Assembly (NCBI GenBank): GCA_002404345.1
Contig: DHJN01000247.1
Span: forward strand, 1 to 20,515
DNA length: 20,515 bases
Direction: 5' to 3'
From: Actinobacteria bacterium UBA4719
GTDB lineage: Bacteria; Actinomycetota; Actinomycetes; Actinomycetales; Dermatophilaceae
The position numbers were made by a program, and so were the translations under genes. The notes beneath the pieces are model-generated. The model was not told the origin of the DNA. It saw only the letters and a list, made by a program, of their open reading frames with translations, and searched no databases. Below are positions 668 to 19,592 of the stretch, in pieces (the stretch's first letter is position 1; each line of letters begins with the position of its first letter).

Positions 668-716
668 CCACGGCACCGAAGAACCACGGCACCGACGAGA
701 CGAGACGAGGCAAACC

Positions 717-1850: not shown

Positions 1851-1859
1851 CTGGGCAGG

Positions 1860-2580: not shown

Positions 2581-2646
2581 GGGAGGTCACCGAAACCGCG
2601 CCTGGGCACCGCAGGTAGTCCAGGCACCGTAGGTATAGGAAGAATC

Positions 2647-2708: not shown

Positions 2709-2828
2709 GCCCCCAAACGCGAACGACGCTTCGCTTGGATCCCCGTTCCATCCACCAGTGGCTGTCGGCCATGACGGCGGGACCGCGTCAACCAAAGAGA
2801 AGAAGACTCAACGTCGAGGAGCGTCACA

Positions 2829-3485: not shown

Positions 3486-3530
3486 CGTCATAGGTCACGG
3501 AGCTGCGGCAGGCCCGGACCGCTTGACAGT

Positions 3531-3557
3531 GCTGCGCCGCGTCAAGCGCGGCGCAGC
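3531..3557 (+). terminator. GC-rich hairpin after the satP-like gene
   Basis: A perfect 11-bp inverted repeat, GCTGCGCCGCG and CGCGGCGCAGC, separated by a 5-nt loop (TCAAG), starts 46 nt after the transporter stop codon. No T-run follows (the next bases are GCCAAAACC), which is common for actinobacterial terminators. It separates the transporter from the next gene, whose start is about 150 nt further on. A role as an intrinsic terminator is the simplest reading; an mRNA-stabilising hairpin is possible. The rest of 3486-3703 holds nothing recognisable. Confidence 0.7.
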
Positions 3558-3703
3558 GCCAAAACCCCATCGGCGTCGGCGCTTCAAGCATTTCCCAAGC
3601 ACATCAACAGAGACTTAGCCCGTTCGCAGCGCGACGGCCGGTCGCTCTGCTTGTAGAGGCAGACCGGTTCTGGACGGTCTGCGATCCTCAAAGGGTGGTT
3701 TCG

Positions 3704-4311: not shown

Positions 4312-4379
4312 CAGGATCCCAGGATCCGCTGACCGAGACGCTCGTCTCCGCTGTTGATACGGCGTCTAACCTCGGCAAG

Positions 4380-5679: not shown

Positions 5680-7182
5680 TCACCCCTGCTCGCGTGTACC
5701 CGAACCCGGGCGAACCGCACTGCCACGAACCTGACTGCGTCCCGACGACCGCCGAAGGCCCAGATCGGGTAGTAGTGGCGCCAGGGTGCGTGCCTTCGCA
5801 GCGCCCGCCCAGAGGCCGGCCCCGTAGGCGAGGTCGTCAAGGCGATGCGCGGCGATGTATGGCAGCAGGGGCTGCTCCGCCCGCGCCCGTCGCCAGTCGG
5901 CCAGCCCCTCCAGCAGCGCCGCGGCGATGACCGCGCGCCGGACCCGACGCGAGACAACGGCGCCGATGAGAGCCGCGGGCCACCAGTGTCGGTTGAGCAG
6001 TCCGGCGCTCTGCCATGCCGCGCTCACCAAGCCGTAGGGCACCAGGCGTGCTGCTCCCCGCACGGGATGCTCGCTGCGCTGGAGCCGTCGCGAGATCCGC
6101 CAGACCGCCGTGCCGCTGGCAGCCACTACCACGGGCAGGGACCACCGTCGCTGGCAGAGCACAGCGACCACGGCCACCGCAGTCCACGGTGCCATCACGG
6201 CCGGCGCCAGGGCCCCCGGGTGACGCTGCGCCAACAACGCCGCCCCGGTGCCGTAGAACGCCTTCCGGCTGAGCCACTGCCGGGTGTTCACCCGGTGCTC
6301 ATGCGCCACCTCGCTGGCCGGCTCGTATCGCACCCGCCACCCGGCGCCGACACACCGCCACACCAGGTCCACGTCCTCGGCGACAGTCAGGTCCTCGTCG
6401 AATCCTCCCCAGATCGCCGTGACCCGCCCGACGAGGCAGGCACTCGGCACATAGGACACCGGTCCCCGCGGGACCACGAGGGCCGGCGTCGGACCGAGAT
6501 CAAGGGAGGAGCGAGCCTTCTCGTATGCCGTGAGCCACCTTGCCGCGATGCCCTCCGGAGGCAGGTCGTCCAGGGCGACGATCCGTGGCGCCACGAGCCC
6601 GACCGCCGGGTCTGCGAAGTGCTCGAGCAGCCCCTCCAGCCAACCGGGTCGGGGCACCACGTCTGAGTCAAGGAACGCGACGAACGGCGTCGTCACTGCC
6701 GCCAACCCGGTGTTCCGGGCAGCCGCCGGTCCGCGACACTCCTCATGGCGCAGCACCCTCGCTCCGGCCGATCGGGCGATGTCAGCAGGGCTGCTGTCGG
6801 ATGAACCGTCGTCCACGACCACCAGCTGCAGCTCAGCGGGCAGCGAGGCGAGCAGCCGGGCCAGGGGCCGGGCGCGGTCCTTCACCGGGACGACCACGGT
6901 GACATCAGCCTGCCCGGGGACCCCTGGCTGTGTTGGCGAAAGCACCGGACTGGCGAGTCCGCCGTCGACAAGAAGACGTGCCAGGTCGCCGGTGCGCCGG
7001 TTCACGACCTCGATCTCGTCCGTGTTCGCGAGCAGCCCCGCCGCGTAGGGAAGCAGGTACAGCACCCGGGCCGGGGTCCCGCCATACAACGTGCGTCCGC
7101 CGTCGCTGCGGGCCGTGCTCGGAGTCAGCCGAATCCGCATGCCCATGGGGAGTCGCGCCGAGGCCGGACCGGTGCCGCTCAC
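5680..7182 (-). CDS. mftF: mycofactocin glycosyltransferase MftF
   Basis: A 500-residue family 2 glycosyltransferase. In the mycofactocin pathway MftF adds a chain of beta-1,4-linked glucose units to premycofactocin. The GT-A core is clear: DVTVVVPVKDR (residues about 92-102), VVVDDGSSD, GPAAARNTGL, the DxD-type metal site FLDSDVVP, and GGFDEDLTVAEDVDLVWR with the ED acid pair. About 70 N-terminal residues (GGRTLYGGTPARVLYL) match the PqqD-like leader section of MftF proteins. Two hydrophobic stretches (APWTAVAVVAVL, LPVVVAASGTAVW) after the catalytic domain suggest membrane association. The GTG at 7182 overlaps the SDR stop by 4 nt and is preferred to the ATG at 7251, which would lie inside the SDR gene. 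It is the last gene of the operon. Confidence 0.92.
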   Translation of the reverse strand: MSGTGPASARLPMGMRIRLTPSTARSDGGRTLYGGTPARVLYLLPYAAGLLANTDEIEVVNRRTGDLARLLVDGGLASPVLSPTQPGVPGQADVTVVVPVKDRARPLARLLASLPAELQLVVVDDGSSDSSPADIARSAGARVLRHEECRGPAAARNTGLAAVTTPFVAFLDSDVVPRPGWLEGLLEHFADPAVGLVAPRIVALDDLPPEGIAARWLTAYEKARSSLDLGPTPALVVPRGPVSYVPSACLVGRVTAIWGGFDEDLTVAEDVDLVWRCVGAGWRVRYEPASEVAHEHRVNTRQWLSRKAFYGTGAALLAQRHPGALAPAVMAPWTAVAVVAVLCQRRWSLPVVVAASGTAVWRISRRLQRSEHPVRGAARLVPYGLVSAAWQSAGLLNRHWWPAALIGAVVSRRVRRAVIAAALLEGLADWRRARAEQPLLPYIAAHRLDDLAYGAGLWAGAAKARTLAPLLPDLGLRRSSGRSQVRGSAVRPGSGTREQG

Positions 7183-7982
7183 GTCGTGAGCCCACCATCG
7201 GCGTGCAGGACTGATCCGGTCATTGCGGAGGACTGCTCGGAACACAGCCAACAGATCGCGGCGGCCACCTCGGCCGGTTCGAGAAGCCGCTCCACGAGCT
7301 GGTGGTGGGACAGCTCCTCCGGGCCCTCAAGGCCATAGAGTGCTGCGGTCGCCGACAGCATCGGGGTGCGGGTCGACCCCGGAGAGACGGCCATCGCGGT
7401 CACGCCGGTGCCACGCAGGTCAGCAGCCAACCCGAGGACCAGACCGACCACCGCGTGCTTGGCGGTGATGTAGGCGGCCAGATGCCACATCCCACGGTGC
7501 CCGGCGGCCGAGGCGATTCCCACGAACCTGCCGGACCGCGGTTCGGGCCGCCGCAGCAGCGCCGGCACGGCAGCAGCGGCCAGATCCCACGTCCCCAGAA
7601 CGTTGATGTCCCACAATGTCTTCAGAGTCTGCGGCGACTCGTCCCACAGGGCCTTCCCGCCGCCGATCACCGCAGCAGCTGCCACCGCCGCGTCCAGGCC
7701 ACCGTGGTCTCGCTCGGTCTGCGCTACGACGTCGGCGAGAGCCTTCGCGTCCCGGACATCGGCCATGACGGCGTGGACCTGACCAGGCCACCGGGCCTCG
7801 ACCGCCTCCAGGTCGGCGGGACGCGACATCGGGTAGTCCACGCCTGCCATGTCGGTGACCAGGTCGACGGCGACAACGGTCCAGCCCGCCCCGGCCAGGC
7901 CGTCGACGACCGCTGCTCCGATGCCGCGCGCAGCCCCGGTCACGATCGCCACGCGGGGGTCGAGGGCGCGATCCGTTGTCAC
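7179..7982 (-). CDS. mycofactocin-coupled SDR family oxidoreductase
   Basis: A 267-residue classical short-chain dehydrogenase. It has the cofactor motif TGAARGIGAAV (residues about 15-25), the DVRD after strand 3, the NVLG motif, the catalytic S-Y-K set (SAAGH..., AAYITAKHAV), and SPGSTRTPML. The insert after strand 2 (VTDMAGVDYPMSRPADLEAVEARWPG) is the feature that marks the mycofactocin-associated SDR subfamilies, whose nicotinamide is thought to stay bound and be recycled by mycofactocin. The usual NNAG motif is replaced by AAAVIGGGK. The GTG at 7982 overlaps the mftE stop by 4 nt, and the gene's stop overlaps the mftF start by 4 nt, so translation is probably coupled. It could supply or use an alcohol/aldehyde pair; the substrate is not predictable. 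Confidence 0.88.
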   Translation of the reverse strand: MTTDRALDPRVAIVTGAARGIGAAVVDGLAGAGWTVVAVDLVTDMAGVDYPMSRPADLEAVEARWPGQVHAVMADVRDAKALADVVAQTERDHGGLDAAVAAAAVIGGGKALWDESPQTLKTLWDINVLGTWDLAAAAVPALLRRPEPRSGRFVGIASAAGHRGMWHLAAYITAKHAVVGLVLGLAADLRGTGVTAMAVSPGSTRTPMLSATAALYGLEGPEELSHHQLVERLLEPAEVAAAICWLCSEQSSAMTGSVLHADGGLTT

Positions 7983-8728
7983 CCCACCACCCCGCTTCGC
8001 TCGTCACCGAGTCGGCCCTGACCGTCCGGCGCCCACATCAGCACACTGGAGACGAAAGCCGCGACCATGCCCGACACCAGCCGAAGTCCCTCCTGCGCCG
8101 ACGCCCCGGAGGGATCACCGAGCACACCGTTGGGCGACACCGCGGCGACGCCACCGACGCGCATTCTGGACAGCAACGCGGGCAGCGGTTCGAGCGCTCC
8201 CGGCTCCGCCCGCTCCAGGCGCACATCGTCAGGCACCAGGATCAGCGCCAGCGATGTCTCGATGCGCCCGGCATGGGAGTCGATCGCCGCCCCATCCCGT
8301 TCCGGAGTGGCAGCGCAGGCCGCCCAGCCCACATCGTGCCCCTCATATCTCAGCTGCCTCACCGCCGCGACAACGGCCGGCACGTTGCCGCCGTGGCCGT
8401 TGACGAAGACGCACCGACCCGCCCATGACCCTGCGGAACGCACGAGCTCGACCAGGAGGTGTTGCAGGGCCTCCTGGCCGATGGAGACCGTGCCCGCGAA
8501 GTGCTGGTGCTCGCCGCTCGACCCGTACGCCAGTGCCGGTGCGATCAGCACGTCCACACCCACCTCCCTGATCAGATCCGCGGCCCGACGGGCCACCGCC
8601 TCGGCGATCACGGTGTCCATGCCCAAGGGCAGATGCGGGCCGTGCTGCTCCGTCGAGCCGACCGGAATCAGCACCATGGGCCGCCCCGAGAGCTCGGGGC
8701 TCCGGGCGCGGGCAAGCAGGTCGCTCAT
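7979..8728 (-). CDS. mftE: mycofactocin peptidase MftE (creatininase family)
   Basis: A 249-residue member of the creatinine amidohydrolase family. MftE releases the modified C-terminal Val-Tyr dipeptide (AHDP) from MftA after MftC has acted. Metal-ligand motifs are at the N-terminus: PVGSTEQHGPHLPLGMD, giving Glu27, His29 and Asp38 with creatininase spacing. The later FVNGHGGN and the SHAGRIETS segment supply His/Glu ligands. The ATG at 8728 forms an ATGA overlap with the restored etfB stop. Because etfB carries an extra base, the etfB frame runs straight into mftE and a gene finder may report one fused ORF to 9631. The linker residues in that fusion are arginine-rich and unlike either family, so I annotate mftE separately. 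Confidence 0.93.
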   Translation of the reverse strand: MSDLLARARSPELSGRPMVLIPVGSTEQHGPHLPLGMDTVIAEAVARRAADLIREVGVDVLIAPALAYGSSGEHQHFAGTVSIGQEALQHLLVELVRSAGSWAGRCVFVNGHGGNVPAVVAAVRQLRYEGHDVGWAACAATPERDGAAIDSHAGRIETSLALILVPDDVRLERAEPGALEPLPALLSRMRVGGVAAVSPNGVLGDPSGASAQEGLRLVSGMVAAFVSSVLMWAPDGQGRLGDERSGVVG

Positions 8729-9631
8729 GACGGCTGTGTCGGGGTGTAGCCCCGCTCGGCCAGCCAGTTCAGCAGGACGTCTGCGGCCTCCTCCGCGGGC
8801 ATCGGACCGAGCACGGTCGGCACGCTCCTGGTGGCCAGCGCGCCGGTGAGCTTCGAGCAGGCGCTCGCGTGGGTCAGAGCCGGCGGGCGGTGGCACCAAC
8901 CGCGGTCGGGGACGGTGGGATGCCGGCCGACCGACCTGCACCGCCGCGGGGGTGACGATCGATGGAGGCGAGGCGATCGGGACCGCGGTCCGCCGCGCCT
9001 CGAGCTCGGCCTTCAGCGACGCCCGACGCAGTCGGAGCCCTGCCGCCTCCACCGAGCAGACGGCCGGTCTCGGCACCCGCAGCACTTCGCGACGCCCACC
9101 GTCGAGTCGGCGTTGGGCTCGCAACCCGGCCCCCTCCACCGACACCGACACCAGGCCAAGGGCCTGGGCAGCGCCGAGCTCGTGGGCGACGTACGCCGGT
9201 ATGGCGCCCGTGCCCCGGTCGGCCGAACGGTCGCCACAGAGAACCAGATCCGGCTCGCCCACCGTGCGGATCGCCGCGACCAGCACCTCGGCCAGGGAGC
9301 GCCCGTCATCGGCCAGGTCAGCGATCCAGGCATCCTCATCAGCCGCACCGCGACTGGGCCAGGGTACTCGCAACACCGACGCGCCGACCGCGCGTGCTTC
9401 GCGCAGCGTCGCCTCAGCCGTTACTGGCCCGGCGGTCACGGCGAGCACGCGTCCGTCCCAGGCGTCGGCGATCCGCAGGGCAGTCTCGAGCGCTGCAAGC
9501 TCGGCCGGGTTGGCTCCGGCTGACCGGTCGTCGCGGCTGACGTGCCCGCTGAGCCGGTCCACCTCGGGGCGCAGGTCGGTATGTCGCAGCAGCGCGACGA
9601 TCAGGGGAGGTTTAACGGTCATCTGGGTCAT
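8725..9631 (-). CDS. etfB: electron transfer flavoprotein beta subunit, frameshifted near the 3' end
   Basis: ETF beta, partner of the etfA product in the same operon; the heterodimer carries FAD (and AMP) and shuttles electrons to ETF:quinone oxidoreductase. Recognisable are ALRIADAWDGRVLAVTAGP, the LVLCGDRSADRGTGAIPAYVAHELG core and the LRLRRASLKAE end of the folded domain. Frame 1 is good from ATG 9631 to about 8854 (DPRERLLE). From there the next frame gives LTGALATRSVPTVLGPMPAEEAADVLLNWLAERGY and a TGA at 8725-8727 that overlaps the mftE ATG, exactly as other genes of this operon overlap. One surplus base in the TT at 8852-8853 explains both frames. A restored protein would have about 301 residues. 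The start overlaps the fixX stop by 4 nt; ATG 9622 is the alternative. Confidence 0.85.
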
Positions 9632-9951
9632 CCGTTCCGGAAGACGACGCCATGCCCGCCGTCGGGGTAGGTCCAGGTCAGTGCGCCCTCGCTGTTGCAC
9701 ACCATGTAGCAGGTGCCGCATTCGAAGCACTGCTCGTAGTTGAACAGGATCCCGCCGTCGGAGGTCTGGGCGAAGAGGTTCGCAGGGCATGCGGTGACGC
9801 AGGCCTGGGTCGTGCACGAACGGCATACGTCGGAGTCGACCACGATGTGAGCTCGTTCGCCCACGCGGAACTCCACGGTGGCCATCCGATCCTCGAATGA
9901 GACGACCGGCGGTCGTGCCGGTTGGTCTGGGCGGTTCGGGTCGATGTTCAT
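9628..9951 (-). CDS. fixX: FixX-type ferredoxin of the ETF:quinone oxidoreductase
   Basis: A 107-residue ferredoxin. Eight cysteines fall in two groups, C43-x2-C46-x4-C51-x3-C55-P and C75-x2-C78-x2-C81-x3-C85, enough for two [4Fe-4S] clusters, whereas the short enterobacterial FixX keeps only part of this set. The C-terminus (ALTWTYPDGGHGVVFRNG) is the usual FixX ending. It is expected to complete the split ETF:quinone oxidoreductase made with the neighbouring FixC-type flavoprotein, at the cytoplasmic face of the membrane. The ATG at 9951 overlaps the fixC stop (ATGA) and is preferred to the upstream ATG at 9999 inside fixC. The stop overlaps the etfB start by 4 nt. Confidence 0.93.
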   Translation of the reverse strand: MNIDPNRPDQPARPPVVSFEDRMATVEFRVGERAHIVVDSDVCRSCTTQACVTACPANLFAQTSDGGILFNYEQCFECGTCYMVCNSEGALTWTYPDGGHGVVFRNG

Positions 9952-11273
9952 CGGAAAATCCTTCCGCCCAGGGCGGCGTCCTTGGCCAGGTCGCGCCAAC
10001 GCACGCCGTGATCCTTGACCGTCCTGCGCAACAATGCGGTCATCCTTGGCTTGGGCTCGGGGTTGGTCACCGTGAAGATTCGCTCGGCCATGTCGCAGAT
10101 CAGACCCGTGTACTGCGCGTGCAGGCGTTCGGACAGCACGAACTTGGGTGCGTCCTGCATCCGCTTGTGGTCGGCCAGCACGAAGGACTTCTCCATCGAG
10201 GTGCGGTACGACGCCAGGCCCTTGGCCGAGAAGTCATTGGACCAGACCGCCTGCGATACCGCAGCGCCGGCAGCGAGGCCCGAGCCGATGGCGAAGTTGA
10301 CGCCCTCGAGCCACAGCCCTGCCGCCAGGCACATCCCGGCCGCGTCGCCGGCGATCAGCAGACCGTCGGTGGCCAGCTTGGGCATCGCGCGATAGCCGCC
10401 CTCGGGGATGAGGTGGGCGGCGTACTCCTTGAGCTCGGCCCCGCGAAGTGCCGGGGCGATGGCCGGGTGCGTGCGCAAGTCGGCGATGAGCTCCTCGGGA
10501 CGGACCTTGGCCTTGGCGAGCCCTTCGACCGAGACGACGACGCCGAGGGCGATGGTGTCGTGGCCGGTGTAGAGAAAGCCACCGCCGGGGATGCCGCGGG
10601 TGCAGCCGAGCATCTCGATGTCGAGGCCTTCGCGCGGACCGAGCGCGTAGCGCTCCTCGATGACCTCCGGGGGCAGCGACCACACCTCCTTAACCCCAAG
10701 GGTGTGATGGGCCGAGTCGGCGGCCGGCAGCAAACCGGCCTCCTTGGCCAGGAACGAGTTGACCCCGTCGCAGGCGATGACGACCCGGGCCCGCAGGTCG
10801 CCGTCGGGACGGTCGGTGTGCACCCCGATGACGCGGCCGCGGTCATCGCGGATCAACCCGGTGGCCACCGTCGACGTGATGAGCTCGGCGCCGGCCTCCA
10901 CCGCCTTGCCGGCCAGCCATGCGTCGAAGTCCGGGCGGTACGCGGTCATGCCGTTGTACGGCGCCTCCCCCCAGTTCTGCGCGCGGATGTCGACGGTAAC
11001 CGCCTGGTGTCCGGTCATGATCATGGTGGAGCGTCGGGTGACCCAGCGCTGGACCGGCGCCTCCAGCCACCACTGCGGCAGGACCTCGTCCAGGACGCGG
11101 GCGTAGATGACACCGCCGTAGACGTTCTTGGACCCGGGGAACGGTCCGCGCTCAACCATCAGCACGGAGCGCCCGGCTTGGGCCAGGGCCAGGGCGGCCG
11201 CAGCGCCGGCCGGGCCAGCGCCCACAACGACCGCGTCCCAGACCTCGACCTCGCCATTCACGTTCTCAGGCAT
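9948..11273 (-). CDS. fixC: FixC-type ETF:quinone oxidoreductase flavoprotein
   Basis: A 441-residue FAD protein of the FixC/ETF-QO family, which takes electrons from reduced ETF and passes them to the quinone pool. The N-terminal dinucleotide fold is VVVGAGPAGAAAALALA (GxGxxG at residues 18-23), followed by VERGPFPGSKNVYGG, the family's FAD/quinone segment. Further on come VVIACDGVNS, GVKEVWSLP and LLIAGDAAGMCLAAGLWLEGVNFAIGSG, the second FAD motif (GDAAG) with the membrane-proximal loop. It lacks the C-terminal ferredoxin domain of the single-chain enzyme, which is supplied by the adjacent fixX gene. The ATG at 11273 overlaps the etfA stop by 8 nt. Presence inside a mycofactocin operon suggests that it disposes of electrons from mycofactocin-linked oxidation. 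Confidence 0.94.
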   Translation of the reverse strand: MPENVNGEVEVWDAVVVGAGPAGAAAALALAQAGRSVLMVERGPFPGSKNVYGGVIYARVLDEVLPQWWLEAPVQRWVTRRSTMIMTGHQAVTVDIRAQNWGEAPYNGMTAYRPDFDAWLAGKAVEAGAELITSTVATGLIRDDRGRVIGVHTDRPDGDLRARVVIACDGVNSFLAKEAGLLPAADSAHHTLGVKEVWSLPPEVIEERYALGPREGLDIEMLGCTRGIPGGGFLYTGHDTIALGVVVSVEGLAKAKVRPEELIADLRTHPAIAPALRGAELKEYAAHLIPEGGYRAMPKLATDGLLIAGDAAGMCLAAGLWLEGVNFAIGSGLAAGAAVSQAVWSNDFSAKGLASYRTSMEKSFVLADHKRMQDAPKFVLSERLHAQYTGLICDMAERIFTVTNPEPKPRMTALLRRTVKDHGVRWRDLAKDAALGGRIFR

Positions 11274-12330
11274 GCGTCACTTCCTGCCGATTCGTCGCGG
11301 CTGGCACGTCGATGCCCAGCCGTCCTGCCAGGACAATCAAGAGCTCGCCCGCGTCGGTCACCAGACCCAGATCGGCCATCGCCGTCATCGGACAGGACGG
11401 GTCCTTGTTGACGCTGACGATGTGGCTGGGGGCACCCAGCCCACCAGTGTGCTGCGATGCTCCGGAGATGCCGAAGGCGATGTAGAGGTCAGGGTCGATG
11501 GTCACGCCAGTCGTGCCGATCTGCCGTTCAAAGCCCACCCACCCGGCGTCCGTGACAACACGCGTCGCCCCCACGGAGGCGCCCAAGGCCGCGGCCACGT
11601 GCTGAAGCAGGGTCATCGCCGCGGGCCCGGCGTCAGCTCCGGCGTCGCGCGGCACCAGTCCCGCGCCACCGGCCAGCACCCGGCTGGCTTCAGCCAGGTC
11701 CATCGTCTCGGGGTCGGGCTCGAGCACCTCGAGCACCTCGACCTCGTGAGCTGCCCCGGCCTGGGCGCCCGATGTGGTCAGCGGCGCTGAGGTGAGAGGC
11801 GGTGTGAGCTCCGCGAAGGAGCACGAGGCACCCGTCGGCACCGAGCCACGGACGCCGGGCACCAGCGTTGCCACCGCTGCTGCCTTGACCGTCACGGGCA
11901 GGTCGATTCGGCCCTCGACGCGGGACAGCACGGCAGCGACGTGCGGGGTCGCCGCCTCGGCGTCCATCCAGATCCGGTGCGCGGCCGCGAGCAACGGTCG
12001 GTCGAGCTCGGCCGCCAGACGCGGCGCCAGATCCCGTCCGTCCGGTGAAGCCGGGAGGATGACGAGCGGGACGTCATACAGGCTGGGCGCCAGCGCACGG
12101 GCGAGATCACCCGGGCGCAGTCCGCGCCCGGTCTCGGCCGTCCAGGCGTGCCTGGCCGTGGTCAGCAGCTCGGCCGCTGCCCGGGCCCCCTCGCCGACGA
12201 CGAGCACCCGCCCGCCGGCTTCGGCCACCACCTCGTCGGCACCCACAGGCAGCTCACCCGACCGGGCGACGACGATGGCCAGGGGTGAATCGGAGCCGAA
12301 TACGGTCGCTTCGGACCTGGGTTCGCTCAC
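11266..12330 (-). CDS. etfA: electron transfer flavoprotein alpha subunit
   Basis: A 354-residue ETF alpha. The C-terminal FAD domain is clear: VGATRVVTDAGWVGFERQIGTTGVTIDPDLYIAFGISGASQHTGGL with its flavin-binding loop, then VSVNKDPSCPMTAMADLGLVTD, the family end. The N-terminal domain (VVARSGELPVGADEVVAEAGG, then VLVVGEG) is more divergent but co-linear. The GTG at 12330 makes a GTGA overlap with the stop of the preceding flavoprotein gene and is preferred to the ATG at 12444, whose extra 38 residues lie antisense-like inside that gene. Subunit order in the operon is alpha, ETF-QO, ferredoxin, beta, so the two ETF subunits are separated by their acceptor genes. Confidence 0.93.
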   Translation of the reverse strand: MSEPRSEATVFGSDSPLAIVVARSGELPVGADEVVAEAGGRVLVVGEGARAAAELLTTARHAWTAETGRGLRPGDLARALAPSLYDVPLVILPASPDGRDLAPRLAAELDRPLLAAAHRIWMDAEAATPHVAAVLSRVEGRIDLPVTVKAAAVATLVPGVRGSVPTGASCSFAELTPPLTSAPLTTSGAQAGAAHEVEVLEVLEPDPETMDLAEASRVLAGGAGLVPRDAGADAGPAAMTLLQHVAAALGASVGATRVVTDAGWVGFERQIGTTGVTIDPDLYIAFGISGASQHTGGLGAPSHIVSVNKDPSCPMTAMADLGLVTDAGELLIVLAGRLGIDVPAATNRQEVTHA

Positions 12331-14306
12331 AGTGCCACCGCCACTCGATGGCCCTCGATGACGGCCGAGTGCGCCCGTCTGGGGGCAACGGCGTCGCCGA
12401 TGCGGTGGACCTCCAGCGCTGGGTCGTCGAGCAGCTCGCGCCACAGCTCGTCGACGGGCTGTTGGTGCGTGGCCACGACAACCCAGTCACACGAGCGGGA
12501 GCGCTGCGCGCCGGTCGGGTGATGCAACAGGTCCAGGGTCACGCCGTCTCCATCTTTTCCACCGTCGAAGGCTGTGGCACCCATGACCACCAGGTCGGTC
12601 GACTGGACGATGCCCTTGGCGTGGGCACGCATGAGCCACCCCTCCATGTCGAGGGTGATGCCGAGATCTTGACCGACCACCATGCCGGGCGTCATCACCT
12701 CGACCGACGCCCCCCGGTCGGCGAGCAGCTCGGCGACGGACGTCGCCTGGTGGAACCCGAGGTCGTCGACGACGACGACATCGCCGTCCGGGGCGGCGCG
12801 ACCTTCGAGGACGTCACGGACGTCGACCACGCGGGCGTGGTCACCGGCCCACCAGGGTCGTGCCGGGCGGGCGCCTGTGGCCACGATCACCGCATCGGGG
12901 GAGAGTGCGCGGATGGCGGCGGCGTCGGCGTCAACCCCGGTGCGGACGTCCACCCCGGTGCGTTGGCACTCCGAGAGGAGGTTCCGCACAATGTCGAGGA
13001 ACTCGGCCCGGCTCGGCACGCTCGCGGCCACGGCGACCTGCCCGCCGGTCTGCGGCTCGCGTTCGAGCAGGGTGACCTCGTGACCGCGCGCGGCTGCCGT
13101 CGTGGCCGCCTGCAGGCCCGCCGGTCCGCCGCCGACGACGACCACGCGCCGCCCACGCCGACGTGGGGCGGGCAGAGTGATGGACTCCCGTCCGGTGCGA
13201 GGGTTCTCGATGCAGCCGAGCCAGCGGTTGAGCCCCATCCGGCCGACGCACTCCTGGTTGCAGGACAGACAGGTCCGGATCGATGACGCCTCGCCGGCGC
13301 GGGCCTTGGCGACGAAGTCGGGGTCGGCGATCTGCCCGCGCACGACCCCGATGAGGTCACAGGTGCCCGCGGCCAGGGCCCGGTCTGCCTGCAGCGGATC
13401 CTTGAAGCGGCCCACCCCGATCACCGGCAGGTCGACCGCCTGACGCAGGGCCGCCGGGATGTAGGACGCGTAGCCGGCGGGCACGTGCATGCTCGCCTCG
13501 ATCATGAACAGCGTCGCGGTGGCGACGCCGATCGAGGTGTTGATGTAGTCCGTCTTGCCCTGGGCCTCGACCAGCCGGGCCACGGCGACGGCCTCCTCGA
13601 TCCTGGTGCCGCCCTCGATCAGCTCGTCGCCGCACAGCCGCACGCCGAGCGCCCGGCCGGGGCCGATCGCCTCGCGCACGACGTCGATGATCTCGAGCAG
13701 GATGCGCGCGCGGTTCTCCAGCGACCCGCCGTACTTGTCCGTGCGCTCGTTCGTCGCCGGCGAGAGGAACCCGCGGACGATCGAGGAGTGTGAGCACTGC
13801 AGTTCGACGCCGTCGAACCCGCCCTGGGCACAGTGGTCGGCGACCAGTCCGTAGCCGGCCACGATCTCGCGGATCTCGTGCTGGTCGACTGCCTTGGGCA
13901 CCTCACGGAACAAGGGGTCCGGCACGGCACTCGGCGCCCAGACCGGGAGCCGGGAGAACATGCTCGAGGCCTGCCCGCCGTTGTGGTTGAGCTGAGCCAG
14001 GATCGGCACGTCGTAGGCATGCACGGCCTCGGTGATCCGCCGGTATCCCGGGATCACCGCCGAGTTGAAGCCATGGATCAGCTTCTCGTATGGCCAGTCC
14101 GTGGGGTGGGTCGAATGCTCCTCGGTGATGATCATGCCGGCCCCACCCTTGGCCCGCGCCGCGAAATAGGCCGCGTGCTGCTCGCTGGGAAGACCATTTT
14201 CGGCGTAGTTGGTCAGATGGGCGGAGAAGACCACCCGGTTGCGTACCGTGATCGGCCCGATCTTCAACGGGGAGAACAGGTATCGGTACTTGCTCTGCCC
14301 GCTCAT
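12327..14306 (-). CDS. mycofactocin-system FadH/OYE family (TMADH-like) iron-sulfur flavoprotein, second copy
   Basis: A 659-residue three-part flavoprotein: an OYE-type FMN barrel (residues about 1-335), a [4Fe-4S] loop with Cys346, 349, 353 and 365, and an ADP/FAD-binding domain (GGGPAG at 392-397, ATGARP later). This is the plan of 2,4-dienoyl-CoA reductase FadH and trimethylamine dehydrogenase (TMADH). FLSPATNERTDKYGGSLENRAR is close to TMADH. The Tyr of FadH's GYL motif is replaced (SSIVRGF), no GWH motif is seen, and the TMADH flavin-linking cysteine near residue 30 is absent (SAHLTNY), so FMN should be non-covalent. TMADH hands electrons to ETF, and etfA follows here with a 4-nt overlap. 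Start ATG 14306 overlaps the previous stop. The substrate is unknown; mycofactocinol is an inference. Confidence 0.9.
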   Translation of the reverse strand: MSGQSKYRYLFSPLKIGPITVRNRVVFSAHLTNYAENGLPSEQHAAYFAARAKGGAGMIITEEHSTHPTDWPYEKLIHGFNSAVIPGYRRITEAVHAYDVPILAQLNHNGGQASSMFSRLPVWAPSAVPDPLFREVPKAVDQHEIREIVAGYGLVADHCAQGGFDGVELQCSHSSIVRGFLSPATNERTDKYGGSLENRARILLEIIDVVREAIGPGRALGVRLCGDELIEGGTRIEEAVAVARLVEAQGKTDYINTSIGVATATLFMIEASMHVPAGYASYIPAALRQAVDLPVIGVGRFKDPLQADRALAAGTCDLIGVVRGQIADPDFVAKARAGEASSIRTCLSCNQECVGRMGLNRWLGCIENPRTGRESITLPAPRRRGRRVVVVGGGPAGLQAATTAAARGHEVTLLEREPQTGGQVAVAASVPSRAEFLDIVRNLLSECQRTGVDVRTGVDADAAAIRALSPDAVIVATGARPARPWWAGDHARVVDVRDVLEGRAAPDGDVVVVDDLGFHQATSVAELLADRGASVEVMTPGMVVGQDLGITLDMEGWLMRAHAKGIVQSTDLVVMGATAFDGGKDGDGVTLDLLHHPTGAQRSRSCDWVVVATHQQPVDELWRELLDDPALEVHRIGDAVAPRRAHSAVIEGHRVAVAL

Positions 14307-16336
14307 CGGGCCACCTCGAACCGGACAGACGGTCGCGATCGTGACGTGGCAACGCGAGACAGGACGGTCAACGCGGCGCGTCGACCCTCCAGGATGGCCT
14401 CGTGCACGGTCCTCGGGGCGATGCAGTCACCGGCCCGCACCAGCTCGTCCCGCAGGGACACGTCCGCGCCGACCAGCGCGTCATACAGCTGCTCCTCGGC
14501 CAGGCGGTGGCTTGCGTCGACGATGAGATCGGTGGGGATCACACGTTGTTCGCGGGTCCAGCGTTGTTCCACGAGCGCTCCTTCGACGGTGACTGCGCGC
14601 AGGAGGCTGGACAGGATCCGGACCACCCCGGCCTGTTGGAGCCGGGAGTTCGCGTCGGCCAGGTCACCCGAGAGGGACAGGCCGGTCCCGACGATCTGGT
14701 CCTGCGTCACGATGCTCACCTGGTGGCCCGCTCGCGCCAGGAGCTCGACGACTGCGACGCCGACCGGTCCACCCACGGGGTCGTTCACCAGTACTCGGGA
14801 ACCGGGACCCACCACGGTCGACAGGGTGCCCCGTGACGCGGCATCGAGCAGGTCGGCGGCCGTGATCACCGTGGCGCCCGGGTCAGTCCGGTAGCGGGGC
14901 GTTGAGGCGCGCGACCCGGTTGCCAGCACGACGGACTCTCCCGATGACAGCGCCGCCCGGATGTCTTCCGGGTTGAGCCGTGACCCCAGGGCCAGGCTCA
15001 CGCCAACGCGGTGGCACTCCGAGATGAGCCAGTCACTCAGGTCTCCAAACGTCTCCCGCCCGGCGGCGACCACGGGCAGCATCCCTCCTGCCCGGTCGGC
15101 GCCGTCGACGACCCGCACCGAGGCTCCGCGAGCTGCCAGGACCCGCGCGCACTCCAGCCCAGCCGGTCCGGCACCGACGACGAGCACCCGGTGACCCTGC
15201 CCCTCGTGGCTGTCGGTGCCTTCGACGTCGACGTCCACGGTCTCGTGACCGGAGCGCGGATCACCGATACATGCCACCACGGGGTTGCGGTTGTCGCGCA
15301 CCCGGCAGTTCTGGTTGCACCGCACGCATGGGCGCACCGTGGCCGCTGCCCCGGCGCGCACCTTCGCCACCAGATCGGCGTCGGCAATCAGTGCCCTGGT
15401 CATCTCGACCAGGTCTGCGACACCGTCATCGAGCGCCGACTGGGCCATACCCGGGTCGACGACACCGCCCTGCAGCACCACGGGCAGCGCCCCTTCGACC
15501 GCGTTGCTGATCTGCCGACACAGCTCAACGGTGTGACCGGCGGGTGCATGCGCGTCCGGACGATAGGCGCTCGCGGTGAACGGGCCACCCTGCACCACCA
15601 CCAGCAGGTCGAGCAGCGGCGCCAACGCGCGCACCTGCTCCACCGCCATCTCCGGCGTCACCCCCGCCCACGGCGCCAGCTCGTCACACGACAGCCGCAG
15701 TGACAGGACGACATCCCGGCCGATCTCGTCGCGGACCGCAGACAGGATCTCGCGGGTCAGCATCAGACGGTCCTGGCCATAGGCGTCCTCACGCAGGTTG
15801 GTCAGCCCCGAATGGAACTGCCGCAACAACGCACCGACACCCGCGTCGATCTCGACGCCCGCCAGACCCGAGTCAACGGCCAGCCTGGCCGCCCGGACGA
15901 ACCCGGTCACGAGCAGGTCGACGTCCGGCTGCTCCATGGCCACCGGCATCTCCCGGCTGGCCGCGTCGGCGACACGCGAGGGTGCCCACAATGCCTGTTG
16001 GGAGAAGGCGGTCGACCCCTGCGCGCCGGTGTGGCCCAGGCCCGCCAGGACCAGGGTGCCCTGGTCGCGGCAGGCCGCGGCGACCGCGGCCCAGCCGGGA
16101 GCGCAGTCCTGCGCGAGCGGTGCGCGTTCATACGGCCAGTCACTGTCGTGGACTGACGCGGTCTCGGTGACCAGGACGCCGGCGCCACCAGCCGAGCGGC
16201 GCGCGTAGTACGCCACGTGTCGATCACTGATCGAGCGTCCGGCAGCGAGGTTGGTCTCGTGGGGGCCGAACAGCACCCGCGATGGTGCCTGGCGACCCGC
16301 AAGGACAACGGGATCGGTCAGAGTGGTACCAGCCAT
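14303..16336 (-). CDS. mycofactocin-system FadH/OYE family iron-sulfur flavoprotein, first copy (divergent)
   Basis: A 677-residue paralogue of the next gene with the same order: FMN barrel, four-cysteine [4Fe-4S] loop (Cys337, 340, 344, 356), and a nucleotide-binding domain (VVGAGPAGLECA at about 386-397). It is more divergent in the barrel: the YGGSLENR signature is replaced by YGQDRLMLTR, and the active-site helix reads GALLRQFHSGLTN. The dinucleotide domain also looks altered (VDGADRAGG; PVGGPVGVAV). The two copies may form a heteromer, or one may have kept only a structural or electron-relay role. ATG 16336 lies 5 nt after the mftC stop, and its stop overlaps the next start (ATGA), so it is translated with mftC. 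Similar gene pairs are catalogued as mycofactocin system FadH/OYE oxidoreductases 1 and 2; which number applies to which copy I cannot say. Confidence 0.88.
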   Translation of the reverse strand: MAGTTLTDPVVLAGRQAPSRVLFGPHETNLAAGRSISDRHVAYYARRSAGGAGVLVTETASVHDSDWPYERAPLAQDCAPGWAAVAAACRDQGTLVLAGLGHTGAQGSTAFSQQALWAPSRVADAASREMPVAMEQPDVDLLVTGFVRAARLAVDSGLAGVEIDAGVGALLRQFHSGLTNLREDAYGQDRLMLTREILSAVRDEIGRDVVLSLRLSCDELAPWAGVTPEMAVEQVRALAPLLDLLVVVQGGPFTASAYRPDAHAPAGHTVELCRQISNAVEGALPVVLQGGVVDPGMAQSALDDGVADLVEMTRALIADADLVAKVRAGAAATVRPCVRCNQNCRVRDNRNPVVACIGDPRSGHETVDVDVEGTDSHEGQGHRVLVVGAGPAGLECARVLAARGASVRVVDGADRAGGMLPVVAAGRETFGDLSDWLISECHRVGVSLALGSRLNPEDIRAALSSGESVVLATGSRASTPRYRTDPGATVITAADLLDAASRGTLSTVVGPGSRVLVNDPVGGPVGVAVVELLARAGHQVSIVTQDQIVGTGLSLSGDLADANSRLQQAGVVRILSSLLRAVTVEGALVEQRWTREQRVIPTDLIVDASHRLAEEQLYDALVGADVSLRDELVRAGDCIAPRTVHEAILEGRRAALTVLSRVATSRSRPSVRFEVAR

Positions 16337-16341
16337 ATCGT

Positions 16342-17571
16342 TCAGGCCCTCGAGGAAAGCTGCAGGCCGACGAGTGGGCTCTCGTCACAACCGCGGTCCG
16401 GCCGGTGCCCGATCGTGACTGGCACCGGCTCACCGGCGGCACGGGGCTTGGGTGCCTGACCGCGCACCGGACCACCATGGGAGTGGTCGCCATCCGGCTT
16501 GGGCAGGACGGCAGCTGCGCTGCGGTCGGCAAGGGCCTGCTCGCCGTAACCGACGATGCACTCGGGGTCAGGTCCATCCAGCGGCAGTCCGGTGAAGAAC
16601 TTGGCCGCCATGCAGCCACCGCGGCACGAGTCGTAGTGCGCGCACTTGGCACACGCGCCGCCCGTCTGTGGTCGGCGCAGCTCCTCGAAGAGCGGCGACT
16701 CGCGCCATACCTTGTGGAAACCCCCGTCCCGCAACAGGTTTCCGGCCAGGAACTCGCTGTGGATGGCGAAGGGGCAGGCGTACACGTCGCCCACCGGGTC
16801 GATCAGGCAGACGACCCGCCCCGCGCCGCACAGGTTGAGGCCCGCCAGCGGTTCGCCGAACCCGGCCAGGTGGAAGAAGGAGTCACCGGTGAGCACACCC
16901 TCGCCGGCCAGGACCAGCCAGTCGTAGAGCACGCGCTGCTGGTCCGCCGTCGGGTGCAGCTCGTCCCACACGTCCGCACCGCGGCCCGAGGGTCGCAGCC
17001 TGGTGAGCCGGAGGGTGGCGCCGAAACGGTCGGCCAGCGCCTTGAACTCGTCCAGCTGGGTCACGTTGTGCCGGGTGACCACGACGGAGATCTTGGCATC
17101 CTTGAAACCGGCCTCGGCGAGGTTCTCCAGCGCCCGCAGCGCGGTGGCGTACGAGCCCGCGCCGCGGACCGCGTCGTTCACCTCGGCGGTCGCGCCGTCC
17201 AGGGAGATCTGCACGTCCACGTAGTCCGTGGCAGCGATCCGTGCGGCCTTCTCCTTGTCGATCATGATTCCGTTGGTGGAGAACTTCACCCCGACCTGGT
17301 GGGCCACCGCGTAGTCCAGCAGGTGCCAGAAGTCCGGCCGTACGGTCGGCTCCCCGCCGCCGATGTTGACATAGAACACCTTCATCCGCTGCAGCTCGTC
17401 GATGACCGCCTCACACTGCTGGGTGGTCAGCTCGTTCGGGTCCCGTTTGCCTGAGGAGCTCAGGCAGTGGACGCACGCCAGGTTGCAGGCGTAGGTCAGC
17501 TCCCACGTCAGGCAGATGGGTGCATCCAGCCCGAGCGCGAACTGGTCAACAAGGGGCAGCACAGCGGTCAT
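16342..17571 (-). CDS. mftC: mycofactocin radical SAM maturase MftC
   Basis: A 409-residue radical SAM/SPASM enzyme. MftC oxidatively decarboxylates the C-terminal tyrosine of MftA and then forms the Val-Tyr carbon-carbon bond. The SAM cluster is C29-x3-C33-x2-C36 (YACNLACVHC), followed by VNIGGGEPTVRPDF. The auxiliary-cluster SPASM part follows with LCGAGRVVCLIDPVGDVYACPF, GACAKCAHYDSCRGGCM and the last cysteine in DPEC. A proline-rich tail of about 60 residues follows. ATG 17571 has AAGGAG about 8 nt upstream and lies 12 nt after the mftB stop. Confidence 0.97.
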   Translation of the reverse strand: MTAVLPLVDQFALGLDAPICLTWELTYACNLACVHCLSSSGKRDPNELTTQQCEAVIDELQRMKVFYVNIGGGEPTVRPDFWHLLDYAVAHQVGVKFSTNGIMIDKEKAARIAATDYVDVQISLDGATAEVNDAVRGAGSYATALRALENLAEAGFKDAKISVVVTRHNVTQLDEFKALADRFGATLRLTRLRPSGRGADVWDELHPTADQQRVLYDWLVLAGEGVLTGDSFFHLAGFGEPLAGLNLCGAGRVVCLIDPVGDVYACPFAIHSEFLAGNLLRDGGFHKVWRESPLFEELRRPQTGGACAKCAHYDSCRGGCMAAKFFTGLPLDGPDPECIVGYGEQALADRSAAAVLPKPDGDHSHGGPVRGQAPKPRAAGEPVPVTIGHRPDRGCDESPLVGLQLSSRA

Positions 17572-17583
17572 CGCGGGACTCCT

Positions 17584-17904
17584 TCAGCGAGGGGTGAGCA
17601 TGCCGGATCGGGCCAGGCCGTCCAGGGCCCGGAGGTATGTCGCACGGTCGCCTTCGGGGACGCCGGCTGCGATGAGGGCGGAGCCGACATCTGGGGTGTT
17701 CTCCAGGCCGCGGACGACATCCACGAGCAGTCGGGACTTCAGGAAGGACAGGCGGCGGGTGGTGAAGTCGTAGGCGAGGGCGCCGAACGACTCGTCGCGC
17801 AGAGCAACGCCGGGAGAGAGCCGCCACGGCTGTGCCGCGTCGAACTCCAGCTCCGGCGCGGACCTGGCCGCAGGGGTCACCTCAATAGACACCGCACATG
17901 CCAT
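17584..17904 (-). CDS. mftB: mycofactocin peptide chaperone MftB
   Basis: A small PqqD-like RiPP recognition protein of 98 or 106 residues. MftB binds the MftA leader and delivers it to MftC. The family signature is WRLSPGVALRDESFGALAYDFTTRRLSFLKS, followed by a helical wing (LLVDVVRGLENTPD, RATYLRALDGLARSGML). The ATG at 17904 overlaps the mftA core codons by 23 nt in another frame and has a GAAGAGG element upstream. The GTG at 17880, just after the mftA stop, gives 98 residues starting MTPAARSAPE and is an equally sensible choice because homology begins later. Either way mftA and mftB are translationally coupled. Confidence 0.93.
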   Translation of the reverse strand: MACAVSIEVTPAARSAPELEFDAAQPWRLSPGVALRDESFGALAYDFTTRRLSFLKSRLLVDVVRGLENTPDVGSALIAAGVPEGDRATYLRALDGLARSGMLTPR

Positions 17905-18043
17905 CGATCGAGACCTCTTCGACGAGCGTTTCCTCCACGAGCTGCTCTGCAGCCGGCTCGGCGTGTGATGCGGTGGTGGCGGGATCGTCTGCTGATCTCG
18001 CGGTGGTGGCAGGTTGGACCTCGATGGTCGGCTGGTTGTTCAC
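17882..18043 (-). CDS. mftA: mycofactocin precursor peptide MftA
   Basis: A 53-residue precursor ending LVEETLVEEV then SIDGMCGVY. The last two residues, Val52-Tyr53, are the part that becomes the redox cofactor; the acidic ETLVEEVSIDGMCG stretch is the conserved MftB/MftC recognition region. The GTG start at 18043 is fixed by a perfect AGGAGG (complement of 18048-18053) four bases upstream, and no other start has a comparable site. The N-terminal 30 residues (NNQPTIEVQP, then an Ala/Thr-rich run) are longer than the minimal leaders of about 30 residues seen in some species. It is the first gene of the long minus-strand operon, with its promoter in the 256-bp divergent region shared with the dehydrogenase gene. 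Confidence 0.97.
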   Translation of the reverse strand: MNNQPTIEVQPATTARSADDPATTASHAEPAAEQLVEETLVEEVSIDGMCGVY

Positions 18044-18299: not shown

Positions 18300-19592
18300 A
18301 TGCAAGTTGATGAGCTGCTGAAACCGTTTCCGATCAAAGAGTTCCACCCGTTCCCACGGGCACTCATGGGGCCGGGCGCACACGAGATGATCGGGCCGGA
18401 GGCGCTGAAGCTCGGCTTCCGCAAGACCCTCATCATGACCACGGGACTGCGCGGTTCGGACGTCGTGCACAAGATCGCCGAGTCGATGAAGTACCACGGT
18501 CTCGAGGTCGTGATCTACGACAAGGTGGAGTCCAACCCCAAGGACTACAACGTCATGGACTCGGTCAAGCTGTACCAGGAGAGCGGTTGCGACTCCTTCG
18601 TGTCCATCGGCGGCGGTTCGTCCCATGACGCCTGCAAGGGTGCCCGGATCTCGGTCGCCCACGACGGTCGCAACGTCAACGAGTTCGAGGGTTTCAACAA
18701 GAGCGAGAACCCGAAGAACCCGCCCCACATCGCCGTGTCGACCACAGCTGGCACCGGCTCGGAGACCTCGTGGGCGTACGTCATCACAGACACCACCACC
18801 GACCCGGACAACCCGCACAAGTTCGTGGCCTTCGATGACGCCTCGATCACCTCATTGGCGATCGACGACCCGGTCCTCTACTTCGACTGCCCGGTCGACT
18901 ACACCGCACAGTGCGGCTTCGACGTCCTGGCCCACGCCAGCGAGCCCTACGTCTCCCGGATAAACTTCGAGCCCTGTCTCGGCAACGCGTTGCACGCCAT
19001 CAAGCTCACCAGCCAGCACCTGCGCGCGGCAACCTGGAACGGCCAGGACCTCGCCGGGCGTGAGGGCATGATGTATGCGCAGTACATCGCCGCCCAGGCG
19101 TTCAACTCCGGCGGCCTAGGGATCGTCCACTCGATCTCCCACGCCATCAGCGCGTTCTACGACACCCACCACGGCCTCAACAACGCGATCGCGCTGCCGC
19201 GGGTCTGGGCGTTCAACATGCCCGCGATCTACCCCCGCTTCGCGGACATCGCCGAGGCAATGGGTGTCGACACCCACGGCATGACCAAACCGCAGGCCGC
19301 AGATGCTGCACTGGCAGCTGCGATCCGCCTGCTGCGCGACGTCAACATCCCGGAGCGCTTCGTGGACGTCACCAAGGACAGCTACTCCAAGAACCGCCTG
19401 GGCAGCGGACCGACCGAGTACTACAAGAAGTCCGGCGTGATCAAGGGTGACGCAGCCGACGTGGACCGCATCACCAACCACGTGCTCGGTGACGCGTGCA
19501 CCCCGGGCAACGCCAAGGAGTGCACCTTTGACCTGGTGCGCCCCGTGGTCGACCACTGCATGAACGGCGATCTGGACGACCTGCTCACCTGA
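18300..19592 (+). CDS. mno: NDMA-dependent methanol/alcohol dehydrogenase (type III iron-containing ADH)
   Basis: A 430-residue type III alcohol dehydrogenase of the actinobacterial nicotinoprotein group (Mno/Mdo/ThcE), which in vitro needs the dye NDMA because its NAD(P) stays bound. Cofactor-binding motifs are SIGGGSSHD (about 102-110) and STTAGTGSE (147-155). Metal ligands with Fe-ADH spacing are Asp208, His212, His277 and His291 (QCGFDVLAH; IVHSISHAISAFYDTHHGLNN). The N-terminus MQVDELLKPFPIKEFHPFPRALMGPGA and the C-terminal LGDACTPGNAKECTFDLVRP are typical of this subgroup. Start is supported by AGGAGG at 18288. It is divergent from mftA: the enzyme class depends on mycofactocin for recycling in vivo, so the cofactor maker and a main user share one control region. 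Methanol is the likely but not proven substrate. Confidence 0.93.
   Translation: MQVDELLKPFPIKEFHPFPRALMGPGAHEMIGPEALKLGFRKTLIMTTGLRGSDVVHKIAESMKYHGLEVVIYDKVESNPKDYNVMDSVKLYQESGCDSFVSIGGGSSHDACKGARISVAHDGRNVNEFEGFNKSENPKNPPHIAVSTTAGTGSETSWAYVITDTTTDPDNPHKFVAFDDASITSLAIDDPVLYFDCPVDYTAQCGFDVLAHASEPYVSRINFEPCLGNALHAIKLTSQHLRAATWNGQDLAGREGMMYAQYIAAQAFNSGGLGIVHSISHAISAFYDTHHGLNNAIALPRVWAFNMPAIYPRFADIAEAMGVDTHGMTKPQAADAALAAAIRLLRDVNIPERFVDVTKDSYSKNRLGSGPTEYYKKSGVIKGDAADVDRITNHVLGDACTPGNAKECTFDLVRPVVDHCMNGDLDDLLT

Follow-up and report, generated by a model that had tools for sequence, protein, structure and literature searches.

The window analysed here is the whole of contig C129 (DHJN01000247.1; 20,515 bases) of Actinobacteria bacterium UBA4719, whose assembly comprises 3.77 Mb in 275 contigs and is 87% complete. 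Its minus strand carries, from position 5680 to 18043, a mycofactocin (mft) cluster in the order mftA-mftB-mftC-OYE1-OYE2-etfA-fixC-fixX-etfB-mftE-SDR-mftF, in agreement with the gene list of an initial annotation of this DNA, which had also remarked, correctly, that neither mftD nor mftG lies between mftA and mftF. We consider it probable that the six genes OYE1-OYE2-etfA-fixC-fixX-etfB, referred to below as the cassette, are an alternative premycofactocin synthase system standing in for MftD. This is the best reading of the locus because of the exclusivity of the cassette with mftD, the slot that the two commonly occupy, their repeated joint swaps and the recurrence of the cassette on haloarchaeal plasmids.

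In a profile search of the window, ten of the twelve operon proteins exceeded curated NCBIfam cut-offs. Among them are the precursor peptide MftA (17882..18043; 53 aa, C-terminus ...VSIDGMCGVY, inferred GTG start; TIGR03969, 50.5 bits, cut-off 25), the chaperone MftB (17584..17904; TIGR03967, 110 bits, cut-off 33), the radical SAM maturase MftC (16342..17571; TIGR03962, 655 bits, cut-off 265) and the glycosyltransferase MftF (5680..7146, inferred ATG start, the longest frame running from 7251; TIGR03965, 475 bits, cut-off 280), the four proteins by which a mycofactocin biosynthetic cluster is recognised, together with the creatininase-family peptidase MftE (7979..8728; TIGR03964, 298 bits, cut-off 172) and a mycofactocin-coupled SDR oxidoreductase (7179..7982; TIGR04504, 372 bits, cut-off 250; NF040491, 364 bits, cut-off 265). 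The cassette begins with the mycofactocin system FadH/OYE family oxidoreductases 1 and 2, namely OYE1 (14303..16336; TIGR03996, 847 bits, cut-off 628) and OYE2 (12327..14306; TIGR03997, 1009 bits, cut-off 793), and includes the alpha and beta subunits of a mycofactocin-associated electron transfer flavoprotein (ETF), encoded by etfA (11266..12330; inferred GTG start, overlapping the OYE2 stop; NF038209, 420 bits, cut-off 240) and etfB (8730..9631, 3' end approximate; TIGR04503, 282 bits, cut-off 200, covering positions 1-255 of the 290 in the profile). The remaining two proteins, both below their cut-offs, are FixC, an ETF:quinone oxidoreductase-like flavoprotein (9948..11273; NF007450/PRK10015, 327 bits, cut-off 466), and its ferredoxin-like partner FixX (9628..9951; ATG start overlapping the fixC stop; NF011993/PRK15449, 59 bits, E 4e-16, cut-off 166). 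Reading frames overlap at OYE1/OYE2, OYE2/etfA, etfA/fixC, fixC/fixX and fixX/etfB, as expected of one transcription unit, which the minus-strand genes from mftA to mftF would therefore form. An apparent frameshift near 8,860 leaves etfB in a frame that is free of stops into mftE. In the related record L068 a stretch of N separates these two genes, and the fusion of frames (8730-8900) may reflect either a problem of assembly or a genuine change.

The initial annotation had proposed that MftD and MftG homologues be sought in the rest of the genome. No MftD (TIGR03966) over cut-off was found in the 87%-complete assembly, the best match being an LldD-like protein of 244 bits against a cut-off of 470.85, and the 10.7 kb around its gene contain no mft, OYE or ETF reference match. 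Likewise, no MftG over cut-off was detected in this assembly with TIGR03970 (best match 63 bits, cut-off 387.45) or TIGR04542 (60 bits, cut-off 400), NF038210 not having been searched. Since this assembly is incomplete, we carried out a multi-genome survey. An even draw of 396 genomes from the phylum gave 73 with mftC (TIGR03962) over cut-off, that of the window included, and four further relatives (G002, G006, G020 and G021) brought the sample to 77 mftC genomes. Over-cut-off mftD was detected in 60 of these. All 17 mftD-less genomes (G000, G002, G064, G123, G211, G213, G263, G282, G288, G303, G343, G347, G358, G359, G399, G411 and G415) carry an mft-linked OYE together with ETF and FixC, the latter counted where loci reach far enough beside the cassette and not by genome-wide search. 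An mft-linked OYE is missing from all 60 mftD genomes (nominal Fisher p 2e-17 for the 77 genomes, kinship ignored), and none of the 77 is without both mftD and the cassette. An MftD-like protein is absent even at E 1e-60 from 11 of the 17 mftD-less genomes.

Twelve of the 77 genomes have OYE1 over cut-off, all within the mftD-less group, and OYE1 accompanies OYE2 in 14 of the 17. Five genomes were counted as cassette-bearing by position despite scores below the cut-offs: G303, in which the OYE copy is cut by a contig end, G359, with a divergent pair, and three genomes of family f45 (G211, G343 and G358), with a single OYE2-like protein beside mftC. The OYE matches of G367 and G077, at about 306-316 bits, are distant from mftC and were left out of the mft-linked count. 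Proteins over the cut-off of the mycofactocin ETF alpha model occur in 13 of the 77 genomes, again all mftD-less; in the other four mftD-less genomes the OYE has a divergent etfA and fixC as neighbours. OYE1 and mftC of G288 share a contig, at a distance of about 17 kb, and in several metagenome-assembled genomes (G123, G213, G399) cassette genes are found on contigs other than that of mftC, the co-occurrence being kept. The f45 genomes hold a smaller form of the cassette, with one OYE, EtfA, FixC, FixX and mftF, EtfB being detected in one of the three. The f45 loci (L308, L309 and L310) are divergent mft clusters, in which MftA ends in VDGICGVY and mftB and mftE were unmatched by the references used.

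Two further samples gave a similar picture. Among 395 Acidimicrobiia genomes, taken without an mftC search and in part common to the 77-genome survey, mftD was over cut-off in 58 and OYE2 in 38, with a union of 95 and a single genome (G703) carrying both. OYE2 matches at E 1e-130 were obtained in 87 of the 395, of which only the 38 over cut-off were counted; those below it comprise G411, G758 (cut short), G359 and a remainder of 605 bits or less that are probably paralogues, with nine mftD genomes among the lower-scoring ones. Two genera (g336 and g350) hold both types, in different species. Twelve complete plasmid records contain mftC, with mftD in four, the cassette in eight and none with neither. 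The mftD plasmids belong to Mycolicibacterium, Tsukamurella, Thermomicrobium and one Streptomyces, have mftD beside or near mftC, and show no OYE in the flanks that were fetched. The cassette plasmids, in none of which MftD was matched (0 of 8), belong to six Streptomyces, among which CP077967 (unannotated) was counted from the match table alone, without a map, and to the haloarchaea Haloterrigena turkmenica and Halolamina, both with one OYE accompanied by EtfA, EtfB, FixC and FixX. The OYE2 match on the SAT1 plasmid falls in two pieces with no annotated gene there, and the MftD search also returned two Sphingopyxis plasmids at 51% identity, outside the twelve. AAA and VWA genes adjoin the cassette on the haloarchaeal plasmids, and three of the Streptomyces plasmid clusters (L401, L408 and L411) lie near polyketide synthase genes.

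On a tree of the 77 MftC proteins the state of the locus changes between mftD and OYE ten times, at least six of these changes being forced by well-supported branches, although long branches make the places of some rows (G359, G255, G343 and G411) unsure. Independent pairs differing in mftD number six on supported branches (ten on all branches), and all six also differ in OYE (sign test p 0.031); since mftD and OYE are exact complements in this sample, one trait vector served for both in the pair test. The two systems also meet at one place in the cluster. The next recognised gene after mftC is OYE1 or OYE2 in 16 of the 17 cassette loci and mftD in 39 of the 60 mftD loci (on the opposite strand in four of them), mftD lying elsewhere in the other 21. 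The window and G002 are sister to the mftD-bearing G020 and G021 (SH-aLRT 93), and OYE1 of the window occupies the slot after mftC held in those two by mftD. The maps of the window's family read mad'-mno'-mftA-B-C-[OYE1-OYE2-etfA-fixC-fixX-etfB]-mftE-SDR-mftF in the window, mftB-C-mftD-mftE-SDR-mftF-mno-mad in G021 (mftA being found by motif), mftA-B-C-mftD-SDR-mftF in G020 and mad'-mno'-mftA-B-C-mftE-SDR-mftF-mftD in G006. What the sequences show of the cassette is its gene content and position, its exclusivity with mftD in three samples, its conserved cofactor motifs and the fact that OYE2 is found together with ETF and FixC.

Amine dehydrogenases of the trimethylamine dehydrogenase (TMADH) family use ETF. 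MftD deaminates 3-amino-5-[(p-hydroxyphenyl)methyl]-4,4-dimethyl-2-pyrrolidinone (AHDP) oxidatively, and AHDP accumulates upon deletion of mftD (PMC7491314); because the reaction of MftD is an oxidative deamination, any stand-in for it must oxidise an amine. The reaction of the cassette and its direction, the identity of its electron acceptor and the role of OYE1 are what we infer from the sequences. OYE2, perhaps with OYE1, would act as a flavin mononucleotide (FMN)/[4Fe-4S] flavoprotein on AHDP, the cyclic compound made by MftC and MftE and its proposed substrate, oxidising the amine to an imine that would hydrolyse to the keto-amide premycofactocin. Electrons would leave OYE2 through its iron-sulfur cluster for the dedicated EtfA/EtfB and pass by way of FixC/FixX to quinone, so that the cassette would need no oxygen, while OYE1 could serve as a partner subunit, or else as a further dehydrogenase that possibly reoxidises mycofactocinol. 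A close parallel exists in nicotine catabolism, where Pno hands electrons to EtfAB and then to the ETF:quinone oxidoreductase Euo, and where this ETF-linked dehydrogenase and the unrelated oxidase Pao perform similar reactions in sister pathways (PMC7688666). The route from an OYE/TMADH-like protein through ETF and FixC/FixX to quinone had been drawn in the initial annotation and fits the gene anatomy. What has changed is the main enzyme replaced, which was given there as MftG; the suggestion, made in passing, that one paralogue might replace MftD turned out to be the better-supported half, as the cassette is present in all of the mftD-less genomes and in none of the mftD genomes of the survey.

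Conserved motifs of the two flavoproteins agree in part with this proposal. The long OYE family, which contains TMADH, histamine dehydrogenase and Pno along with the reductases FadH and NCR, also includes OYE1 and OYE2, which form separate clades (OYE1 100/100; OYE2 with the G359 copy 100/100). The four [4Fe-4S] cluster cysteines are invariant in an alignment of 64 close orthologues of OYE2, and are kept in 98, 78, 93 and 93% of 58 OYE1 sequences; the OYE1 of Pseudonocardia alaniniphila (L083) is without three of the four, by decay or changed role. The NAD(P)H motif (GxGxxG) has an Asp for one of its Gly residues, at column 927, in 100% of the OYE2 (64) and OYE1 (58) rows with a residue there, as it does in histamine dehydrogenase and Pno and not in FadH or NCR. 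The proton-donor Tyr of ene-reductases, which we take to be Tyr166 of FadH and Tyr196 of OYE, is missing, its place being taken by Ser in OYE2 and by Ser (90%) or Ala in OYE1.

Two sets of observations weigh against a replacement of MftD by such a dehydrogenase, and the first comes from these proteins. The f45 OYE of G343 is without one cluster Cys, and the Asp of the NAD(P)H motif is not specific, as it is also present in 3 of 3 other paralogues. The covalent-FMN Cys, presumably Cys30 of TMADH, is absent, being Leu in OYE2 and most often Glu in OYE1 (Pno has Ala). In what we take to be the Tyr-His-Asp triad of the TMADH active site, OYE2 has Gln for the Tyr, with the His conserved in at least 80% of the 64 sequences and the Asp not mapped. 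The best scores of OYE2 are to NCR (273 bits) and FadH (272) as opposed to histamine dehydrogenase (206) and TMADH (173). Its predicted fold (AlphaFold pLDDT 86.9; 81.5 for OYE1) gave Z scores, root-mean-square deviations and aligned residues of 46.9/3.2/635 with NCR, 45.0/3.3/626 with FadH, 44.9/4.0/638 with TMADH and 43.7/4.2/635 with histamine dehydrogenase. The TMADH-type combination of FMN barrel, [4Fe-4S] cluster and nucleotide-binding domain is present in OYE2 and is not discriminating, since it is common to FadH and NCR. Residues found only with the two amine dehydrogenases number 24 in OYE2 and 11 in OYE1, against 21 and 14 found only with the two reductases. In overall sequence and predicted fold OYE2 is slightly nearer NCR and FadH than the amine dehydrogenases, which argues neither way strongly.

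The second set comes from genomes that carry both systems. From 55 named loci selected for OYE1, 50 genomes were searched throughout (L110, L114, L116 and L117 were omitted as fragments and L119 as a distant paralogue; four of the 50 appear to be G002, G411, G123 and G213 again, and the maps of these loci carry no information on mftF or mftB). Over-cut-off mftD was found in 15 of the 50, and one more has mftD split across contigs. Three Rhodococcus loci read mftC-mftD-OYE1-SDR-OYE2, the OYE pair being kept beside mftD, and the two long enough to tell (L071 and L073) have mftG nearby and no adjacent ETF. Four Pseudonocardia loci have the OYE pair without an adjacent ETF, with mftD elsewhere in the genome, and five Saccharopolyspora and two Amycolatopsis (one of them the split case) have the whole cassette, also with mftD elsewhere. 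Two metagenome-assembled genomes with short contigs (L067 in G429 and L087 in G449) and G703 also carry both; in G703, mftC was found only in the mftD cluster and the OYE-ETF module lies on another contig, mftC not having been searched through the whole genome. The anticorrelation of mftD and the cassette is therefore not absolute. The initial annotation had expected its proposal to fall if mftD and mftG were present elsewhere in the genome and no anticorrelation existed across genomes; this combination was not observed, and what emerged is an anticorrelation with exceptions.

Among the Saccharopolyspora and Amycolatopsis genomes, two of the mftD sites were mapped at length; those of S. flava (L312, G440) and A. 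sacchari (L317, G442) stand beside an iron-type alcohol dehydrogenase gene, with mftC not nearby. The same neighbour is seen in cassette genomes at L250-L254, where mftD is away from mftC and 1.5 kb flanks are visible. Among 31 adjacent OYE1-OYE2 loci with visible downstream sequence, the genome has mftD in all 6 cases that lack an adjacent ETF and in 7 of the 25 that have one, the split case included (Fisher p 0.002, from only two lineages), and since the absence of mftD accompanies the presence of ETF in these loci, an electron-transfer role fits. Twelve more loci (L093, L096, L098-L102, L104, L107, L109, L111 and L112) have OYE1 without OYE2 or a mycofactocin-type ETF in flanks of varying length, and no over-cut-off mftD was found in their genomes; two of them are G123 and G213, which have OYE2 and etfA on other contigs, the other ten not having been checked for OYE2 or ETF. 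Locus L114, from a metagenome-assembled genome record titled Bifidobacterium breve, has mftC and a partial OYE1 like those of other Actinomycetota and is perhaps mislabelled or mixed.

It is also conceivable, and in our judgement rather unlikely, that the cassette does the job of MftG, reoxidising mycofactocinol through OYE1/OYE2, ETF and FixC/FixX to quinone, while an unrecognised enzyme oxidises AHDP. The replacement of MftG favoured by the initial annotation does have an association behind it. MftG exceeded the cut-off of TIGR03970, the sole MftG model applied to the 77 genomes, in 18 of them, every one with mftD and none of the 17 with the cassette, so that the cassette is found in 17 of the 59 genomes without over-cut-off MftG as against none of the 18 that have it (Fisher p 0.008, kinship ignored). 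In addition, about 25% of mftC genomes are described as being without MftG, complementation by other enzymes being left open (PMC11778925), and two OYE paralogues could serve two oxidations. Nevertheless, the absence of MftG predicts the cassette less well than does the absence of mftD, and does not call for it, since both over-cut-off MftG and the cassette are missing from 42 of the 60 mftD genomes, among them G374, whose MftG copy near mftC, at 377 bits, falls just below the 387-bit cut-off. The over-cut-off MftG genomes, 17 in family f18 and one in f55, point to few independent events, another AHDP oxidase would be required in every mftD-less genome, 11 of the 17 being without an MftD-like protein at the threshold given above, and the single-OYE clusters of the f45 genomes and haloarchaeal plasmids are also without mftD. 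In G106, mftC, mftD and mftG matches with identical scores occur near both ends of a 5.99 Mb contig (G106:C1), perhaps an untrimmed overlap.

A division of labour, in which OYE2 makes premycofactocin and OYE1 oxidises mycofactocinol over one common ETF/FixCX line to quinone, would suit two separate clades that occur together in 14 of the 17 genomes; we regard it as improbable, given that OYE1 was not seen in the f45 and haloarchaeal clusters and that its loss of cluster cysteines, in the proportions and in the Pseudonocardia copy mentioned above, would be unexpected in an enzyme that reduces ETF. The same ETF line might conceivably reoxidise mycofactocinol as well. Finally, the four ETF and Fix proteins could be a bifurcating complex of the EtfABCX/FixABCX type, with the OYEs as its acceptor or as a reductase fed by it and not as its donor, which would agree with the four-gene set, with the match of FixC to Thermotoga FixC/EtfC (7koe_C, 250 bits, its best solved relative, as opposed to 72 bits to the ETF:quinone oxidoreductase 2gmh) and with the slightly greater overall likeness of OYE2 to reductases, but is very improbable because a reductive role leaves the swap with the oxidising enzyme MftD unexplained, the OYEs have lost the NAD(P)H-type glycine motif, and EtfB matches bifurcating and ordinary ETFs alike only weakly (63 bits or less), so that its cofactor may be either AMP or FAD.

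Divergent from mftA on the plus strand of the window is an mno-type N,N-dimethyl-4-nitrosoaniline (NDMA)-dependent methanol dehydrogenase (18300..19592; TIGR04266, 667 bits, cut-off 625), likely a user of mycofactocin, followed by a MadB-like AAA ATPase gene cut by the contig end (19682..20515; plus strand; NF047784, 362 bits, below the cut-off of 475). This pair adjoins mft clusters also in G002, G006, G021, G087, G108 and G354, and the divergent mno/mftA arrangement recurs in G002, G006 and G354. The other flank of the operon encodes, on the plus strand, HypD (570-1850), an MFS transporter (4380-5612) and, between them, a protein that matches an acetate uptake transporter weakly (2829-3485), and no link of these genes (570-5612) to the operon was seen.

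The association of these OYE and ETF families with mycofactocin was already known to the curators of NCBIfam, as the families are so labelled, their names stating no role; what this analysis adds is the exclusivity of the cassette with mftD, and with it the enzyme that the cassette would replace. Among the matches listed in our literature search, in which coverage of subscription journals is thin, none concerned the OYE or ETF genes found at mft loci. Descriptions of mycofactocin biosynthesis treat the MftD step as required, and mftD-less clusters are currently read as incomplete in annotation. That the MftD family occurs in most and not all mft species had been noted by Haft in 2011 (PMC3023750). 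We tentatively propose, with somewhat more doubt than assurance, that premycofactocin has a second synthase, unrelated to MftD, in a quinone-linked amine dehydrogenase made up of OYE, ETF and FixCX without need of O2 as acceptor, which has many times replaced MftD or given way to it and which Actinomycetota and haloarchaeal plasmids have in common. If true for these 17 of 77 actinobacterial mft genomes and two haloarchaeal plasmids, both the pathway diagram and the annotation of genomes would change, along with views on oxygen dependence, as the cofactor could be made under anoxia and its biosynthesis would become coupled to how reduced the quinone pool is. Mycofactocinol, too, may be reoxidised by this line, which would explain its recycling in organisms without MftG. 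The cassette is also a testable candidate for the question of MftG stand-ins left open earlier (PMC11778925), its likely role being moved from recycling to biosynthesis.

In comparison with known systems, the OYEs resemble MftD (TIGR03966) in being flavoproteins and in often sharing with it the slot after mftC (39 of 60), and MftD is present in 60 of 60 surveyed cassette-free mft genomes. MftD is, in contrast, an FMN-dependent, LldD-like dehydrogenase of an unrelated family that belongs to no ETF gene set, whereas the cassette comprises six genes. The window proteins are members, over cut-off, of the NCBIfam families mycofactocin FadH/OYE 1 and 2, mft_etfA and mft_etfB. With Pno, TMADH and histamine dehydrogenase the OYEs share the FMN barrel, the [4Fe-4S] cluster, the nucleotide-binding C-terminal half and the loss of the NAD(P)H glycine motif, and differ from them in an identity of 26-29% over the whole chain and in the missing covalent-FMN Cys (absent in Pno too) and active-site Tyr. 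Pno and TMADH couple amine oxidation to ETF and then quinone, the same role being proposed for the cassette, which has FixC/FixX instead of a single-chain ETF:quinone oxidoreductase and acts on a putative substrate. The cassette has the same four components as EtfABCX/FixABCX, its FixC being nearest the EtfABCX type with the Thermotoga protein as best solved relative, but it is coupled to OYE flavoproteins and mycofactocin genes; the EtfABCX complex of that Thermotoga protein is known as bifurcating (PMC10734219). Like MftG (TIGR03970), the cassette would link mycofactocin metabolism to respiration, MftG differing as a GMC-family enzyme that acts on mycofactocinol.

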